This document shows, in pieces, positions 7,589-64,000 of a stretch of 64,000 bases of DNA. Origin of the DNA: Granulicella sp. (lineage in GTDB: Bacteria; Acidobacteriota; Terriglobia; Terriglobales; Acidobacteriaceae); NCBI GenBank assembly GCA_025408425.1, contig JANXYX010000027.1, forward strand, positions 1-64,000, given 5' to 3'. The notes under the pieces are model-generated. The model made no database searches, was not told the origin of the DNA, and saw only the letters and a list, made by a program, of their open reading frames with translations. Within the stretch, counting starts at the first letter, position 1, and every line of letters begins with the position of its first letter. The translations under genes were made by a program, and so were the position numbers.

Positions 7589-8551
7589 TTACTTAACCAC
7601 CGATTGGAAGAGTGGCGAACTGAGCAGAGTAGCAAACTGACTGTCAGATGATGAGTAAGAAACAGTTAGCGTTCCGGAGTTTGAGTCGATCGTTGTCTGA
7701 TCAAGGGCTGTCTTTTCGAGCGGAGAACCAGACGTCTTCCTAAGGATAGAGACACCCTTCATTAGGGTGGCAGCGGTCGCGGCCGTTACCGTATCCGACA
7801 TAACAACGGCCATATCGAACTTGACGCCATTCTGGAAGTCCATGGTGTAGCGAGAACTCTTCATACGATTGCGTACTGTGTCGTAATCAGCAAGTTGAGC
7901 GGCTTCGCCAAGAACACTCTTCATCATGGTCTGGGTGCCCTTTTGATCGAGCAAGCTCCAAATTGCTTTCGAATCGACCGTGATCATTTCATTGACCATT
8001 TCACCATTCGAAAGAAGGTTGGAGGTTATGCCATCGCGGGCGTCAAGTGCCGCCTTAACTGCTTCCCGGTCTCCGAATACCATCGTGGTCTGGTTGAGGA
8101 ATACGACGCTCATTCCAGCAGATCCCATGGGGAAAATACTGTTGTTGCGGAGGACTATCGGCTTAGTTTTTTGTTTAGCAAAATTCGCTAACACCTCACG
8201 CGTGTGAAACTGCCCTTGAGCGATTCCGACAATTCGAGTTCCCTCTCCACCTGAGGCGCGGAAGGCTGCAAATGCGAGGGTGTCAGCATCCTGATCGACC
8301 TTCAGTCCAGAACTCTTCATAGCTGTTTCCAGGCGCTTCAGTTCCGGGGGGAGAACACGATCCTTCAAATCCATAGCGGCCGTGGAGTTCTGCATAGCAT
8401 GATAGTCGACGACAATCAACTGTTGCACATCGTGAGGAATGGATGCTTTGCCATCGCTGCTGAGCTGAGCTGCAAATGCGGCGGTCGAAACCATGGTTGC
8501 GAGGATTACGAGCGCCGTACCGCAAAAACTAGATTTGTAATTTCTATTCAT
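7589..8551 (-). CDS. Exported protein of unknown function
   Basis: A 320-residue protein from ATG 8551. The start is chosen because it opens a clear signal peptide (MNRNYKSSFCGTALVILATMVSTAAFAAQ, cleavage probably after AFA) and has GGGGAA upstream. The longer track ORF adds 35 residues lacking signal features. The mature part has no motif I recognise. It contains blocks such as LIVVDYHAMQNSTAAMDLKDRVLPPELK and a long helical middle with an Ala/Thr-rich segment (DTVTAATAATLMKGV). It is probably periplasmic. It stands alone, separated from the flagellar operon by a hairpin and from the formimidoyltransferase gene by a gap. Confidence 0.75.
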   Translation of the reverse strand: MNRNYKSSFCGTALVILATMVSTAAFAAQLSSDGKASIPHDVQQLIVVDYHAMQNSTAAMDLKDRVLPPELKRLETAMKSSGLKVDQDADTLAFAAFRASGGEGTRIVGIAQGQFHTREVLANFAKQKTKPIVLRNNSIFPMGSAGMSVVFLNQTTMVFGDREAVKAALDARDGITSNLLSNGEMVNEMITVDSKAIWSLLDQKGTQTMMKSVLGEAAQLADYDTVRNRMKSSRYTMDFQNGVKFDMAVVMSDTVTAATAATLMKGVSILRKTSGSPLEKTALDQTTIDSNSGTLTVSYSSSDSQFATLLSSPLFQSVVK

Positions 8552-23174: not shown

Positions 23175-23313
23175 CAGGCATCTCCTGAGTAGAAGAACTG
23201 GAATGGTAGAAGAACGGTATCGGGGGATTCTCTCATATAGCTGCTGAGACGAATCGTGCCGTCCCGCTTCTTTTTGAGTTTTGCAAGCGGGCAGGCTGCG
23301 GCAAGAACAGAAA

Positions 23314-23344
23314 CAGGTCCTCCGCTACGCGAAGGATGACAATT
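23314..23344. repeat. Dispersed repeat family A, copy A1
   Basis: The core CCTCCGCTaCGCGAAGGATG forms a near-perfect 8-bp hairpin (TCCTcCGC / GCGaAGGA, G-U at one pair) with a 3-base loop. It lies between the STAS gene and enolase. Three further copies are at 28972, 60001 and 62220. Confidence 0.8.
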
Positions 23345-23373
23345 CCGAATCAGGTGATGAGCTTTAAAAGGAG

Positions 23374-28939: not shown

Positions 28940-28971
28940 GTGGGGCTCCTTGGGGTGCGGCAACGGCGGCG

Positions 28972-29000
28972 ATGGTCCTTCGCTGCGCGAAGGATGACGA
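28972..29000. repeat. Dispersed repeat family A, copy A2
   Basis: TCCTTCGCTGCGCGAAGGA forms a perfect 8-bp stem with a 3-base loop. Compared with A1 the stem differs at a base that restores Watson-Crick pairing, which supports a folded form. Confidence 0.8.
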
Positions 29001-29111
29001 GTAAAAACAGACAACGGCAAAGGCAAAAGCAAAGGCGATATATTTTCGTTTCGGCTTCGCCTGCACTCATGCCTTCGGCAGATTGGAAGGGGATTTGCGG
29101 CGAGGCTTAAT

Positions 29112-58305: not shown

Positions 58306-59105
58306 GGCGTGGTGAACCTGTGGACGGAGGAGAACTGGTTTGCGGCCCAGACGGCGAGGATGACCAGAAAGACGAAACTGGAGAGGTAGACGGCGCGGCG
58401 TCCACGCAGGCCGGAGTGGCGGCGGATGAAGATCATGCCGACGTAGGCGAGCCACATGGCAAAGGCGAGCAGGATCTTGGGATCGAGGAAGTACGAGGGG
58501 CCGATGGTCTGCTCGGCGAGTGCGGAGCCGATGAGGAGGCCGGCGGTCATGCAGGGTAGGCCGAAGAGGAGGGTCTTGAGGGCGATCTGGTCAGTGGTTT
58601 CGAGGGGCGGGAGGGAGCGGAAGGCTGGCTGCTTGGCTTTGAGACGACGCTCCTGAAAGAAGTAGAGGAGACTGGCCATGAGCGAGAGAAAGAGTGCCGC
58701 GTAAGCAGCGAGGAGGAGGACGATGTGGAGGAAGATCCAGCCGGAGTGGGCGAGAAGAATGGTCTCCTGACCGGGGCGGAAGGCAGGAACGAGGGTGAGG
58801 AGAACGGCGATGGGAAGAACGAATATTCCTAAAGCGAGGGTGCGATAGCGGGCGTAGACGGTGAGGAAGGTGGCGACGAGGAGGAGCGCGAGGAGGGACT
58901 GCGTCTCGTGGGAGTCGACCGGCAGGGTGTGGTGGGCGGCGTTGAGCATCTCCGCGAGGGCGACGAAGTGGAAGAGGAGCGCAGCGATGGTGGCGGGGAT
59001 GGCGAGGTGACGCCAGCGGGGCCGGTCGTAGAGGGCCGCGGGCAAGACCGCGAGCGCGGCGATGCCGTAGAGGAGGACTGCGACTCTGAGCCAGGTAAGG
59101 GACAT
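58302..59105 (-). CDS. CcsA/HemX-like cytochrome c assembly membrane protein
   Basis: A 267-residue protein from MSLTWLRVAVLLYGIAALAVLPA, with about eight helices. LAHSGWIFLHIVLLLAAYAALFLSLMASLLYFFQERRLKAK is the region that in CcsA/HemX-type proteins carries heme-binding histidines; conserved histidines occur in FHFVALAEML and HSGWIFLHI. A gene of this type just upstream of hemA is common, and HemX is reported to modulate HemA levels in Bacillus. No Shine-Dalgarno is clear. The stop overlaps hemA by four bases. Confidence 0.83.
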   Translation of the reverse strand: MSLTWLRVAVLLYGIAALAVLPAALYDRPRWRHLAIPATIAALLFHFVALAEMLNAAHHTLPVDSHETQSLLALLLVATFLTVYARYRTLALGIFVLPIAVLLTLVPAFRPGQETILLAHSGWIFLHIVLLLAAYAALFLSLMASLLYFFQERRLKAKQPAFRSLPPLETTDQIALKTLLFGLPCMTAGLLIGSALAEQTIGPSYFLDPKILLAFAMWLAYVGMIFIRRHSGLRGRRAVYLSSFVFLVILAVWAANQFSSVHRFTTP

Positions 59106-59190
59106 AGGGTGGTGATTGTGGCTTAGGGGCCGCAACGTCTAAGTATATCGTGCGGATGGGGAGGTCGGGATATGTCGTTGCAATCATGGT

Positions 59191-59272
59191 TGTGGCGGAC
59201 AGAAGAGCGGTTCGCGCAATGCGCGAATGCCCACCTTAGCGAGGATGAAGCCGTCGCGAAGATGGGGCACCC
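59191..59272. repeat. Dispersed repeat family B, full-length copy B2
   Basis: TGTGGCGGACA leader, then hairpin I (TTCGCGC-aat-GCGCGAA, perfect), directly followed by hairpin II (CCCA-c-CTTaGCGA, loop around GATGAAGCC, TCGCgAAG-a-TGGGG) and CACCC. It lies between the CcsA-like gene and mutS. Confidence 0.85.
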
Positions 59273-59325
59273 GAATTTGTGGTTGGGAGAATGAGATTGG
59301 CTGAGTGCGGTATTCTGGGCACTCT

Positions 59326-62205
59326 GTGGCGATAGAAACTACAAGCGATGCCAGTGCGTTGACTCCGGTGATGCGGCAGTATTTTGCTGCGAAGGAGCAG
59401 TATCCGGATTGTCTGATGTTTTGCCGGATCGGGGACTTCTACGAGCTGTTTTACGAGGATGCAATTACGGCGGCGCGGGAGTTGCAACTGACTCTGACGG
59501 CTCGGGATAAAGAGAAGAAGCAGCCGATGTGCGGGGTTCCGTACCATGCAGCGGAGGTTTATCTGCAGCGTTTGCTGCGGAAGGGGTACCGGATCGCTCT
59601 GTGTGAGCAGATGGAGGACCCGAAGCAGACGAAGACGATTGTTCGGCGCGAGGTGACTCGGGTGCTGACGCCGGGGACGGCGGTGGATCCCGCGCTGGGG
59701 GCGGAGCAGAGCAATTATCTGGCGAGTGTGGTGGTGCTGGGGTCGGGCGCGGCGGCTTGTGCGGGGTTGGCATTGCTGGACTTGTCTACGGGGGAGTTTC
59801 GGGCAACGGAGTTTGCGGGGCCGGGCGGTTGGGCTGCGGTGGTGGATGAGATTGGGCGGGTGAGGCCGGTGGAGTTGCTGTATGGGGTGGGTTTGCTGGG
59901 GGGACTGGGTGTTGGCGGGGCTAGCGGACTACTTCCCACCCTTCGCGATAAAGCTGCGAAGGATGGGGCACCCGAGGCTTTGGGGCGAGGAGATGAAAAG
60001 CAGGTCCTCCGCTCCGCGAAGGATGACAATTTAGTTGGCGGAGATAACGAAGCCAGTGGTGGGCTGGATGTGATTCGGACTAAGACTGCGCTGGATGAGT
60101 GGGTGTTTACGGCAGAGTATGCGGTGCCGTTGCTGCGGAATCATTTTCGGGTGCACTCGCTGGATGGGATGGGGCTGGGTGGGCATGAGGCGGCGGCGGT
60201 GGCGGCGGGGGCTCTGCTGCACTACATCCAGAAGACGAAGCAGGGTGCGGTAGAGCATGTGGACGGGGTGCGGTATTACGAGCGCTCGACTTGTCTGGAA
60301 CTGGATGCGGTGAGTGTAAGGAATCTGGAACTGGTGGAGCCGCTGTTTTCTGGCGAGTCAATGCATACGACGTTGTTTCATACGCTGGATGCGTGCTGCA
60401 CGCCGATGGGCAAGCGGTTGTTGCGGGCTACGCTATTGCGGCCTTCGAATTCGCTGGAGGAGATTGAGGCTCGGCTGGGTGCGGTGGGCGAGGCAGCGGG
60501 CGATCTCCGTCGGCGGGAGGAGCTGCGGCGGGCGATGGATGGGGTGCTGGATCTGGAGCGGTTGCTCGGGCGGGTGGCTCTGGATTCGGCTGGGCCGCGT
60601 GAGGTGATGGCGCTGGCGGCGACGCTGGGTTGTCTGCCGGGGCTGGTGGCTGCGGTGCGGAAGTTTGAGGCGAGACGGTGGCGGGAGTTGTGTGCAGCAG
60701 GCATAGAGAGCGGTCGTGCTTTGCACGATGCCCACCTTAGCGACGATGAAGCCGTTGCGAAGATGGGGCACCCAAATTCCTCGTCGAGGATGGCGGGTGG
60801 GTTCGATGCGATGGAGGATCTGCATGGGCTGGTGATGCGGACGATTGCTGAGGATGCTCCTGTTTCGTTGGGGGATGGCGGGACGATTCGAGCAGGAGTG
60901 GATGCGGAGCTGGATGAGTTGCGGGAGTTGAGCCGGAGTGGGCGACAGGCGCTGGTGGCGATCGAGGAGCGGGAGCGAGCGCGGACTGGGATTGGATCGC
61001 TGAAGGTTCGGTTCAACAACGTGTTTGGGTACTACCTGGAAGTGACGAAGGCGAATGCGAAGGCGGTTCCTGCGGACTATGAACGGAAGCAGACGCTGGT
61101 GAATGCAGAGCGGTTTACGACTCCGGAGTTGAAGGAGTACGAGACGAAGATTCTGACGGCACAGGAGCGGAGTGGCGAGATCGAGCGACGGATCTTTGCT
61201 GAGTTGCGGCGGGAGTTGCTGGCGGCGGCGGGGCGGATGCGAGAGACGGCGCGGCGGGTGGCGGAGATTGATCTGCTGGCGAACTTCGCTCATCTGGCGG
61301 CGCTGCGAGGATGGGTGAGACCGAGCGTCGAACAGAGTGGAGCGCTGGAGTTTGTGGCTGCACGGCATCCGGTGGTGGAGCGGCGGCTGGAGGAGAGCGG
61401 CGGCGGACGGTTTGTACCGAACAACGTGTATCTGGAGGCCGATGCGGGGCCAGCGGTGCTGTTGATTACGGGACCGAATATGGGCGGTAAGAGCACGTAT
61501 CTGCGGCAGACGGCGCTGCTGGTGGTGATGGCGCAGTGCGGTTGTTTTGTGCCAGCGGAACGGATGCGGCTAGGGCTGGTGGACCGAGTGTTTACGCGGA
61601 TTGGGGCGAGCGACAATGTGGCGCGGGGGCGGTCGACCTTCATGGTAGAGATGACAGAGACGGCAGCGATTTTGAATACGGCGACGAATCGGAGCCTTGT
61701 ACTGCTGGATGAGATGGGACGCGGAACTGCTACATACGATGGGCTTTCGCTGGCGTGGGCTACGGTGGAGCATCTGCATGACCGGATCGGAGCGCGGACG
61801 CTGTTTGCTACGCATTATCACGAGCTGACACTGCTGGCAGAGAGGCTGCCGCGGTTGATGAATCTGCGAGTGACGGTGAAGGAGACGGCGGGGGGTATTG
61901 TGTTTCTGCATACGGTGGAGGCGGGACCGGCGAGCAAGAGCTATGGAATTGAAGTGGCAAAGCTGGCGGGACTGCCTGCGGCGGTGATTGCTCGGGCGCG
62001 CGAGGTGCTGAAGGTGCATGAGCGGGCGGAGACGCAGCAGGTGCGGGAGGCTGCATCTGCTACTGCGCCGCAGTTACAGATGACGATGTTTACACCGCTG
62101 TCGCAACGGATTGTGGATCGGATTGGGGAACTGGATCTGGATGGGTTGACTCCGCGGGAGGCGCTGAATCTGCTGGCGGAGTTGCAGCGGGAGATGAAGG
62201 GTTAG
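59326..62205 (+). CDS. mutS: DNA mismatch repair protein MutS with repeat-derived insertions
   Basis: About 959 residues from GTG 59326 (track GTG 59305 adds seven), longer than the usual 850-880. TPVMRQYFAAKEQYPDCLMF and GDFYELF carry the F-x-E mismatch-reading motif. ITGPNMGGKSTYLRQ is Walker A, LVLLDEMGRGTATYDG Walker B, and the C-terminus is complete. Extra segments occur in the connector domain (LLPTLRDKAAKDGAPEALG and KQVLRSAKDDNL, residues about 211-243 in track numbering) and in the core domain (DAHLSDDEAVAKMGHP, about 470-490). Their DNA matches repeat families A and B found between genes elsewhere in the window. The frame stays open, so the protein is probably functional. Confidence 0.95.
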   Translation: MAIETTSDASALTPVMRQYFAAKEQYPDCLMFCRIGDFYELFYEDAITAARELQLTLTARDKEKKQPMCGVPYHAAEVYLQRLLRKGYRIALCEQMEDPKQTKTIVRREVTRVLTPGTAVDPALGAEQSNYLASVVVLGSGAAACAGLALLDLSTGEFRATEFAGPGGWAAVVDEIGRVRPVELLYGVGLLGGLGVGGASGLLPTLRDKAAKDGAPEALGRGDEKQVLRSAKDDNLVGGDNEASGGLDVIRTKTALDEWVFTAEYAVPLLRNHFRVHSLDGMGLGGHEAAAVAAGALLHYIQKTKQGAVEHVDGVRYYERSTCLELDAVSVRNLELVEPLFSGESMHTTLFHTLDACCTPMGKRLLRATLLRPSNSLEEIEARLGAVGEAAGDLRRREELRRAMDGVLDLERLLGRVALDSAGPREVMALAATLGCLPGLVAAVRKFEARRWRELCAAGIESGRALHDAHLSDDEAVAKMGHPNSSSRMAGGFDAMEDLHGLVMRTIAEDAPVSLGDGGTIRAGVDAELDELRELSRSGRQALVAIEERERARTGIGSLKVRFNNVFGYYLEVTKANAKAVPADYERKQTLVNAERFTTPELKEYETKILTAQERSGEIERRIFAELRRELLAAAGRMRETARRVAEIDLLANFAHLAALRGWVRPSVEQSGALEFVAARHPVVERRLEESGGGRFVPNNVYLEADAGPAVLLITGPNMGGKSTYLRQTALLVVMAQCGCFVPAERMRLGLVDRVFTRIGASDNVARGRSTFMVEMTETAAILNTATNRSLVLLDEMGRGTATYDGLSLAWATVEHLHDRIGARTLFATHYHELTLLAERLPRLMNLRVTVKETAGGIVFLHTVEAGPASKSYGIEVAKLAGLPAAVIARAREVLKVHERAETQQVREAASATAPQLQMTMFTPLSQRIVDRIGELDLDGLTPREALNLLAELQREMKG
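59935..59973 (+). repeat. Family B repeat inside mutS, copy B5
   Basis: CCCA-c-CCTTCGC-GATAAAGCT-GCGAAGG-a-TGGGG then CACCC, with a perfect 7-bp variable stem. In frame it encodes P-T-L-R-D-K-A-A-K-D-G-A-P. Confidence 0.85.
60001..60031 (+). repeat. Family A repeat inside mutS, copy A3
   Basis: The same core as A1 and A4 (CCTCCGCTcCGCGAAGGATG). In frame it encodes QVLRSAKDDN. It follows B5 after 27 bases. Confidence 0.85.
60714..60773 (+). repeat. Family B repeat inside mutS, copy B3
   Basis: Hairpin I is TCGTGC-ttt-GCACGA, differing from B2 but still fully paired. Hairpin II is CCCA-c-CTTaGCgA, loop cGATGAAGCCG, TtGCgAAG-a-TGGGG, then CACCC. In frame it encodes A-H-L-S-D-D-E-A-V-A-K-M-G-H-P. 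Confidence 0.88.
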
Positions 62206-62219
62206 TTCGAGAACAAAAG

Positions 62220-62250
62220 CAGGTCCTCCGCTTCGCGAAGGATGACAAGT
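62220..62250. repeat. Dispersed repeat family A, copy A4
   Basis: Core CCTCCGCTtCGCGAAGGATG between mutS and anmK, 15 bases past the mutS stop. The track start of the next ORF (TTG 62242) lies inside it. Confidence 0.8.
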
Positions 62251-62283
62251 TCGGGCATTATGCGGCGACGATTGGCGGGTTGT

Positions 62284-63483
62284 ATGGAACAGGCTAAGGC
62301 AAAGACGATGGTGGTAGCGGGAGTGATGAGTGGGACCTCGGCGGATGGGGTGGATGTGGCGGTGTGCCGGATTTCGCCTGCGCTGAAGGTGGGGGGCGTG
62401 CCAAGGGTGAAGGTGCTGGGGCATGTGGGGTTTGGGTATTCGAAGGCGGTGCGGACGGCGGTGTTGCGGGTGATGGAGGGTGGTGCGGTGACGCCGGCGA
62501 AGATGAGCCGGTTGAACTGGCGGCTGGGGGAGATCTATGCGGATTGCGTGGAGAAAGCTCAAGAGAAGTTGGGGGTGAAGATTGGGTTGGTTGGGTGTCA
62601 TGGGCAGACGGTGTTTCATGAGGCGAGGGCGGTGAAGGTTTTGGGTGGGGCTGTGCGGTCTACGTGGCAGATGGGTGAGGCTAGTTTGATTGCGGAGAGG
62701 CTGCGGGTTCCGGTGGTGAGTGATTTTAGGCCGGCGGATTTGGCGGCGGGGGGCCAGGGTGCTCCGCTGGTGCCGATGCTGGACTATGTGATGTTTCGGT
62801 CGGAGAAGGTGAATCGGGTGCTGCAGAATCTGGGGGGGATTGGGAATTTGACGGCGATTTCGGCGGGGGCGGGCGTGGACGAAGTGATGGCGTTCGACAC
62901 GGGGCCGGGGAATATGGTGATCGATGCTTGCATGCAGCGGCTGTTCGGGAAGGCGTTTGATCGTGGGGGTGCGGTGGCTAGGCGCGGGCGGGTGATTTCT
63001 GCTGTGGTGGCGCGGGTTTTAGAGGGAGGGTACTTCTCTGCCCTGCCGCCGAAGAGTTGTGGGCGGGAGGAGTTTGGGGCTGAGTTTGCTGAGAGGTTTA
63101 TTGAGGCTTGCCGGAAAGCGGGGGCGAGTGATGCGGATGTGGTGGCTACGGCTACGGGGTTGACGGCGGCGTCAGTGGTGGATGCTTACCGGAGGTTTGT
63201 GTGGGCGCATTTGAGTGCGGCGGCTCCGATGGCGAAGACGGAGTTTGTCGTGGCGGGGGGTGGAGCGAAGAATGGTGCGCTGATGGGGATGTTGCGGGGG
63301 GGGCTGGAGCCGTTGGGGGTGCGGGTTCGGGAGATGGGCGAGCTGGGGGTGGAGGCGCAGGCGAAGGAGGCGGTGGCGTTTGCGCTGCTGGGGTGGCTGA
63401 CCTGGAATGGGATGGTGGGGAATGTTCCGGCGGCTACGGGGGCGGGGAGAGAGGTGGTTTTGGGGAAGGTGACGTTGGCGTGA
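62284..63483 (+). CDS. anmK: 1,6-anhydro-N-acetylmuramic acid kinase
   Basis: About 399 residues from ATG 62284; a later ATG at 62305 is possible. The track TTG at 62242 falls in repeat A4 and is rejected. GVMSGTSADGVDVA is the ATP/substrate loop, LVGCHGQTVFH is the H-x-G-Q-T motif, and VSDFRPADLAAGGQGAPLVPMLD and LNLGGIGN-like LQNLGGIGNLTAI follow. FDTGPGNMVID and VAGGGAKNGALM complete the ASKHA fold. It phosphorylates and opens anhydro-MurNAc during cell-wall recycling. Its stop overlaps a GTG (GTGA) that could start the next gene. Confidence 0.94.
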   Translation: MEQAKAKTMVVAGVMSGTSADGVDVAVCRISPALKVGGVPRVKVLGHVGFGYSKAVRTAVLRVMEGGAVTPAKMSRLNWRLGEIYADCVEKAQEKLGVKIGLVGCHGQTVFHEARAVKVLGGAVRSTWQMGEASLIAERLRVPVVSDFRPADLAAGGQGAPLVPMLDYVMFRSEKVNRVLQNLGGIGNLTAISAGAGVDEVMAFDTGPGNMVIDACMQRLFGKAFDRGGAVARRGRVISAVVARVLEGGYFSALPPKSCGREEFGAEFAERFIEACRKAGASDADVVATATGLTAASVVDAYRRFVWAHLSAAAPMAKTEFVVAGGGAKNGALMGMLRGGLEPLGVRVREMGELGVEAQAKEAVAFALLGWLTWNGMVGNVPAATGAGREVVLGKVTLA

Positions 63484-64000
63484 ATATCTCGACTGGGAAA
63501 GGAGAACGGTTCGCTTCGCGAATGCCCACGTTAGGCGCGATGAAGCTGCGCCGAAGATGGGGCACCCGGATATTGGGGTTGATGCTGGTAGTGGTTTGTG
63601 TGGGGATGGTGGGGTGCCGGGGGGCGCGGGAGGACGTGCGGACGGTGGTGATGGTGATTGAGAGTAGTCCGAACAATCTTGATTTGCGGGTGGGGACGGA
63701 TGCGCAGAGTGAGCGGGTGGGTGGGCTGATTTTTGATGCGCTGGTGAAGAAGGATGAACGCTTCAATTTGCAGCCGTGGCTGGCTACGAGTTGGGAGCAG
63801 CCGGATGCGCTGACCTGGGTTTTTCATCTGCGGGATGGAGTGCGGTTCCAGGATGGGAGGCCGCTGGGAGCGGAGGATGTGGCTTGGACGATCCGGAGCA
63901 TGATGGACGGGAGTTTGATTACGGCGAAGGGTGGGGCGTTTGCGAATGTGTCCGGGGTGGAGGTGCGGGATCGATTGACGGTGGTAGTGCGGATGAAGCG
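63480..64000 (+). CDS. Peptide/solute-binding lipoprotein of an ABC transporter (SBP_bac_5 type, partial)
   Basis: Not in the track as a plus-strand ORF. Possible starts are GTG 63480 (GTGA overlap with anmK), ATG 63522 and ATG 63540. The last gives MKLRRRWGTRILGLMLVVVC, then GMVGC as lipobox. The mature part reads VVMVIESSPNNLDLRVGTDAQSERVGGLIFDALVKKDERFNLQPWLATSWEQPDALTWVFHLRDGVRFQDGRPLGAEDVAWTIRS (given here in pieces of the family pattern), a clear SBP_bac_5 start. It binds peptides, nickel or similar ligands. The neighbour anmK suggests a wall peptide, by inference. The first codons are encoded by repeat B4. Confidence 0.88.
   Translation, partial: MNISTGKGERFASRMPTLGAMKLRRRWGTRILGLMLVVVCVGMVGCRGAREDVRTVVMVIESSPNNLDLRVGTDAQSERVGGLIFDALVKKDERFNLQPWLATSWEQPDALTWVFHLRDGVRFQDGRPLGAEDVAWTIRSMMDGSLITAKGGAFANVSGVEVRDRLTVVVRMK
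63510..63567 (+). repeat. Family B repeat at the start of the binding-protein gene, copy B4
   Basis: Hairpin I is TTCGC-ttc-GCGAA. Hairpin II is CCCA-c-GTTaGGCGC-GATGAAGCT-GCGCCgAAG-a-TGGGG, then CACCC. The ATG in the loop is a candidate start codon of the lipoprotein, and the 3' arm encodes its basic n-region. Confidence 0.88.

Follow-up and report, generated by a model that had tools for sequence, protein, structure and literature searches.

REP/RAYT systems consist of high-copy imperfect palindromes that adjoin a gene for a Y1 transposase (TnpA-REP), are oriented according to the replication strand, and are in some cases intragenic, notably in DNA-repair genes (PMC3733652; PMC6006769). A survey of intragenic REPs, which often lie in DNA-repair genes, judged many of the N-terminal ones to be probably untranslated, with the start codons located downstream (PMC3733652). 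Rickettsia palindromic elements (RPEs), as far as they are summarized in that survey, are short palindromes that lie in frame in unrelated proteins and are read in more than one frame. In Yersinia, the signal peptide predicted for one small hypothetical protein, YPO1552, is formed in part by an RU-2 element (PMC2759123; PMC2229807). For the Acidobacteria, Y1 transposases with flanking repeats (TIRYT) have been reported from Terriglobus, Granulicella, and Acidobacterium (PMC3733652).

Here we describe a repeat at the beginning of a lipoprotein gene in a stretch of 64,000 nucleotides (the window) on contig 27 of the 4.23 Mb draft genome of an acidobacterium (G000). We consider it quite probable that a REP-like element was inserted behind the start codon of this gene and is now read through from the GTG at position 63480 as the n-region of the signal peptide. 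Precedents exist in the RPEs, the intragenic REPs, and RU-2; what is new is the repeat family, the host group, and the comparative evidence.

A REP-like repeat family in Acidobacteria

Thirty copies of the repeat from G000 were aligned, and a structure of two hairpins was scored on the alignment: 93.4% of the cells are paired and double changes occur in 12 of the 21 pairs, a result reached by none of 500 shuffles, which is not a strict probability since the copies are dispersed and related, whereas the control is clear, as slid structures pair in just 29–44%. A covariance model of the family (R1) recovered at least 60 copies in G000, a lower bound for which 150 of 2543 candidates were scored, and the family is present in 59 of 62 congeners (Edaphobacter/Granulicella-like Acidobacteria). 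A search of Rfam with positions 59000–64000 returned no matching family, and in our literature searches no report of the R1 family in Acidobacteria was encountered. Where the two hairpins meet, most copies have an ATG behind a GGAG-like, purine-rich stretch, which may be a built-in initiation signal.

Seven matches to the Y1 transposase family (PF01797) were found in G000, and one of these genes (C39:74995-75501) has an R1 copy ca. 25 bp upstream. Homologues of this transposase occur in 39 of the 62 congeners, and in nearly all of 30 congeneric loci tested R1 matches adjoin a Y1 gene of one PF01797 subfamily, on one or both sides and in many cases within about 25 bp. On the flanks of other Y1 genes of G000 (L179, L180, and L181) there are short palindromes of different kinds (GGGCTTTAGCCC types), which suggests that several REP-like families coexist in this genome and that each is served by a transposase of its own.

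The orientation of the copies in G000 is uniform per contig (53 of 56, whereas 20,000 shuffles never exceeded 48), and in all 30 loci tested the strand of the element shows a positive GC skew in the flanking sequence. Every R1 match in the window lies on the + strand, the GC skew of which is strongly positive between positions 8001 and 64000 (0.17 to 0.39 per 8 kb), and in the closed genomes of two congeners (G131 and G152) the orientation of the elements splits into arcs with few exceptions. Such a strand-linked orientation is the pattern expected from single-strand, replication-linked transposition (PMC6006769), and the strong bias would fit targeting of the lagging-strand template.

The repeat thus resembles REP/RAYT systems in that a short palindrome in high copy flanks a Y1 (HuH) transposase gene, follows the replication strand, and is partly intragenic, here also in a DNA-repair gene (mutS). 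It differs in its longer, two-hairpin unit, in its acidobacterial host, and in being clearly retained in frame within a single gene in many species. Furthermore, the 30 aligned copies lack a GT[AG]G (or CGTC) tetranucleotide at the foot of the hairpins and possess conserved flanks, CGG(T) and CACCCGG, instead; for this reason we call the element REP-like and not a canonical GTAG REP. It also differs from the acidobacterial TIRYT, the reported terminal repeats of which share GGGGWSAS, a motif that does not fit the GGGGCACC of our element, a comparison that concerns the repeat sequences and not the transposases. Because its stems covary, its orientation follows the replication strand, and it flanks a Y1 transposase gene genus-wide, the element is best regarded as a REP-like, presumably mobile and non-autonomous element, which a RAYT-like Y1 transposase acting on single-stranded DNA would spread. 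This defines a new acidobacterial REP-like family together with its likely transposase.

The repeat in the leader of a lipoprotein gene

The gene pair in which the repeat is located (Table 1) is conserved across the family, with orthologues in Edaphobacter, Granulicella, and other Acidobacteriaceae. The product of the second gene is a predicted SPII-type lipoprotein of solute-binding protein family 5, with an n-region, an h-region, and a lipobox with the cysteine at +1 (...VGMVGC, 63600–63617), which is conserved in the congeners, and is presumably processed through the lipoprotein pathway.

Table 1. Coordinates of the features in and around the repeat-bearing genes of the window.
Feature	Position	Strand	Evidence or remark
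anmK-like ORF	62242..63483	+	Upstream of lipoprotein gene; synteny in 29/29 orthologous loci examined (tblastn)
Solute-binding lipoprotein gene	63480..64000 (on contig to 65120)	+	Pfam SBP_bac_5, E 1.9e-93
GTG, likeliest start codon of lipoprotein	63480..63482	+	Overlaps anmK stop (GTGA)
GGGGAAGG, Shine-Dalgarno-like	63462..63469	+	Also coding within anmK; conserved ahead of coupled start in carriers
REP-like element (family 'B' of initial annotation), two hairpins, probably translated	63502..63570	+	Covariance model R1, 79.8 bits, full length (1-71/71)
Hairpin 1, TTCGC-TTC-GCGAA	63510..63522	+	Sequence; stem covaries across copies
Hairpin 2, TGCCCAC...GATGAAG...ATGGGGCA, with mismatches and bulge	63523..63564	+	Stem covaries across copies and orthologous leaders
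Probable 3' tail of element	63571..63578	+	Consensus nTTTGTGG in other copies, degenerate here; suggested by copy comparison
In-frame ATG at junction of hairpins 1 and 2 (alternative start)	63522..63524	+	Sequence
In-frame ATG in loop of hairpin 2 (start of initial annotation)	63540..63542	+	Sequence
Hydrophobic region and lipobox, ILGLMLVVVCVGMVGC	63570..63617	+	Translation; lipobox Cys at 63615-63617
Element copy within mutS, translated in another frame	60706..60776	+	R1, 87.1 bits; extra residues vs. most relatives
Divergent element copy within mutS, translated	59920..59976	+	R1, 33.8 bits; extra residues vs. most relatives
Element copy directly upstream of mutS	59203..59275	+	R1, 73.7 bits

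The initial annotation had placed a repeat copy across the beginning of this gene, and the R1 match at this position (E 8e-16 within the window, 5e-14 in the whole genome) leaves little doubt that the copy is genuine. The interval given for it (63480–63620) indeed holds the element, which is, however, restricted to 69 nt starting within that interval and a short 3' tail, the latter probably encoding the first residues of the hydrophobic region. The loop, GATGAAGCT, contains the ATG as described, followed by the codons for K-L-R-R-R-W-G-T-R and the hydrophobic region, and the mutS (60706–60776) and lipoprotein copies are read in different frames (HLSDDEAVAKMGHP vs. TLGAMKLRRRWGTR), as had also been noted.

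N-regions change rapidly in evolution and, in GC-rich genomes, are rich in arginine, which would favor an ordinary lineage-specific n-region that resembles the repeat by chance. The full-length match to the model, with matching hairpins, excludes chance resemblance and, together with ten orthologous loci at E < 0.001, reduces the probability of this explanation to practically nil. In these ten loci (G000 and nine congeners) R1 locates the element between the start codon and the hydrophobic helix, and decayed forms are visible in further orthologous leaders. Repeat-free congeners possess short, ordinary n-regions (e.g., MSKLRSRIPLKS and MSHRWRLHS) that start with an ATG overlapping the anmK stop codon, and their homology with G000 begins only at the hydrophobic helix. 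This supports the idea, already put forward in the initial annotation, that the repeat became coding sequence in the form of a basic n-region; none of the orthologues compared had this n-region in the absence of the repeat.

In 12 congeneric orthologues, G000 included, the element or a remnant of it lies 28–30 nt after an NTG that overlaps the anmK stop codon (NTGA), a spacing read from the printed leaders (the automatic column mis-anchors in some rows). In all 12 of these carriers the reading frame of this NTG is that of the lipoprotein and stays open as far as the lipobox cysteine, while the second frame (“frame 1”) is closed in all 12 and the third (“frame 2”) in eight, although these are related species and represent fewer than twelve independent tests. 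The element is read in different frames across species (RMPTL, AHLSDDKAVAK, and TPPYRDETAKG), with compensating changes in length: as RFASRMPTLGAMKLRRRWGTR in G000 and its nearest relative G159 (with two differences in the latter), as VRFAKAHLSDDKAVAKMGHPIG, the frame used in mutS, in G164, as VRFANTPPYRDETAKGWGTR in G165, as VRFANAHLSAQMRARRWGTR in G136, and as RIPAHAIKMHEWGTR-like peptides in G166 and G163. In the clade of G000, G159, G163, and G166 the prefix is one base shorter than in the others, which is balanced inside the element, so that most re-enter the WGTR frame. These balancing changes would have no meaning unless the element were entered by translation from upstream.

The start codon

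The initial annotation had proposed that the repeat itself supplies the start codon. Initiation at ATG 63540 (or at ATG 63522) would result in a signal peptide of 26 (or 32) residues, with everything upstream as 5' leader, and MKLRRRWGTR would then be a textbook basic n-region of ordinary length (10 residues, net charge +5). Internal in-frame ATGs also occur in the copies of G159, G164, G136, G166, and G155, and in G178, which carries the element, the codon overlapping anmK is out of frame, indicating that at least one species starts elsewhere. However, no usable start is present inside the element, or between it and the cysteine, in G165, G140, G149, and G123, and the in-frame, open NTG upstream in all 12 carriers would be needless in a non-coding leader; most orthologues, repeat-bearing or not, have moreover conserved a start that overlaps the anmK stop codon. 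The loop ATG also lacks a Shine-Dalgarno sequence, its upstream duplex (−2.4 kcal/mol) being weaker than the background mean (−4.1 kcal/mol), in contrast to the Shine-Dalgarno-like duplex located ten bases ahead of GTG 63480 (−8.2 kcal/mol). For ATG 63522 an SD-like AGGAG is situated ca. 17 nt away, across hairpin 1. A start within the element thus seems rather unlikely.

In view of the compensated frame shifts, and of the carriers whose element offers no start, the best candidate and likely the working start is GTG 63480, the ancestral coupled codon, and not the loop ATG, even though GTG is the weaker of the two types of start codon. The element would then likely lengthen the n-region, to 30 residues with a net charge of +7, rather than provide its start, and the alternative also mentioned in the initial annotation, i.e., an internal N-terminal insertion downstream of the GTG overlapping anmK, is the better reading.

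Proposed origin and retention of the insertion

In a tree built from anmK and the lipoprotein gene most carriers group in a single large clade, the element having been lost or having decayed in several lines, and its position is constant. One ancestral insertion would be the simplest account, although the constant position could instead reflect repeated insertion at one target. We envisage that a copy was inserted, in an ancestral species of the genus, about 28–30 nt past the lipoprotein start overlapping the anmK stop codon, and that it could be kept because two of the three forward frames of the element are open and n-regions accept nearly any basic sequence. In a GC-rich genome open frames alone are uninformative for counting coding copies, and only Pfam-supported ORFs were used in this respect. 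The ribosome would initiate at GTG 63480, by termination-reinitiation after anmK, and read both hairpins, so that the lengthened n-region is followed by the hydrophobic helix and lipobox that were there before; the repeat-coded part would subsequently be cut off by signal peptidase II. That n-regions need little beyond positive charge and are cut off may explain why this site tolerates an insertion, and it offers a concrete route for mobile DNA to become protein.

The element behaves in this respect like an RPE, since an in-frame palindrome occurs in unrelated proteins (the lipoprotein and MutS). As far as RPEs are described in the survey cited above, it is not one of them: its sequence is unrelated, its host is an acidobacterium, and its site is a predicted, cleaved signal peptide, so that the mature protein likely lacks the inserted residues. 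As with RU-2 in Yersinia, a small mobile repeat appears to contribute part of a signal peptide, but here this concerns a conserved SBP_bac_5 lipoprotein in a dozen species and in several frames. This comparison across a dozen species amounts to a test, and it indicates that genuine coding by a mobile palindrome is possible at an N-terminus.

The conservation of the hairpins raises the question of whether they also act as RNA. Between G000 and G159 the element is identical at 60 of 64 positions (94%), compared to 14 of 27 for the prefix and 79% for the mature gene (Fisher p 0.0035), and the stems of the orthologous leaders covary, with double changes in 12 pairs (0 of 500 shuffles). G136 has few copies, and the one in the leader (G136:C1:2400455-2400522) scores highest in that genome. 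These observations would fit hairpins kept as a domesticated RNA control element that tunes the lipoprotein relative to anmK, with coding as a side constraint. However, the hairpins have decayed in G140, G149, G123, and G125 and are absent in many congeners, and gene conversion or re-insertion from other copies would yield the same covariation, which renders this explanation improbable. Judged by eye, the leader of G000 resembles a copy elsewhere in G000 (C9:71053) and the leader of G159 to roughly the same degree, which would fit gene conversion as well as ancestral retention; a conserved leader hairpin is either selected or overwritten by other copies. A dual constraint, in which the hairpin was retained genus-long as an n-region in species-varying frames and, at the same time, compensatorily preserved as RNA hairpins that set expression relative to the upstream gene, also seems fairly improbable to us. 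We retain translation of the inserted element from the coupled GTG as the preferred reading.

Other repeat-coded sequences

MutS (59920–59976 and 60706–60776 in the window; L129, L131, L143, L148, and L154) contains two sites, one before domain III and one inside it, with REP-coded peptides in several congeners, read in varying frames, whereas most other congeners have none. In an ORF for a PMT-like membrane protein (L193:65-2131, minus strand) the element is present in antisense and in frame. A second repeat family (AGGTCCTCCGCTnCGCGAAGGATGACAA) is present in the window at 23304–23347, 28962–29005, 59991–60034, and 62210–62253, and sequences resembling it form the signal-peptide n-region in the orthologues of G162, G147, and bog_405.
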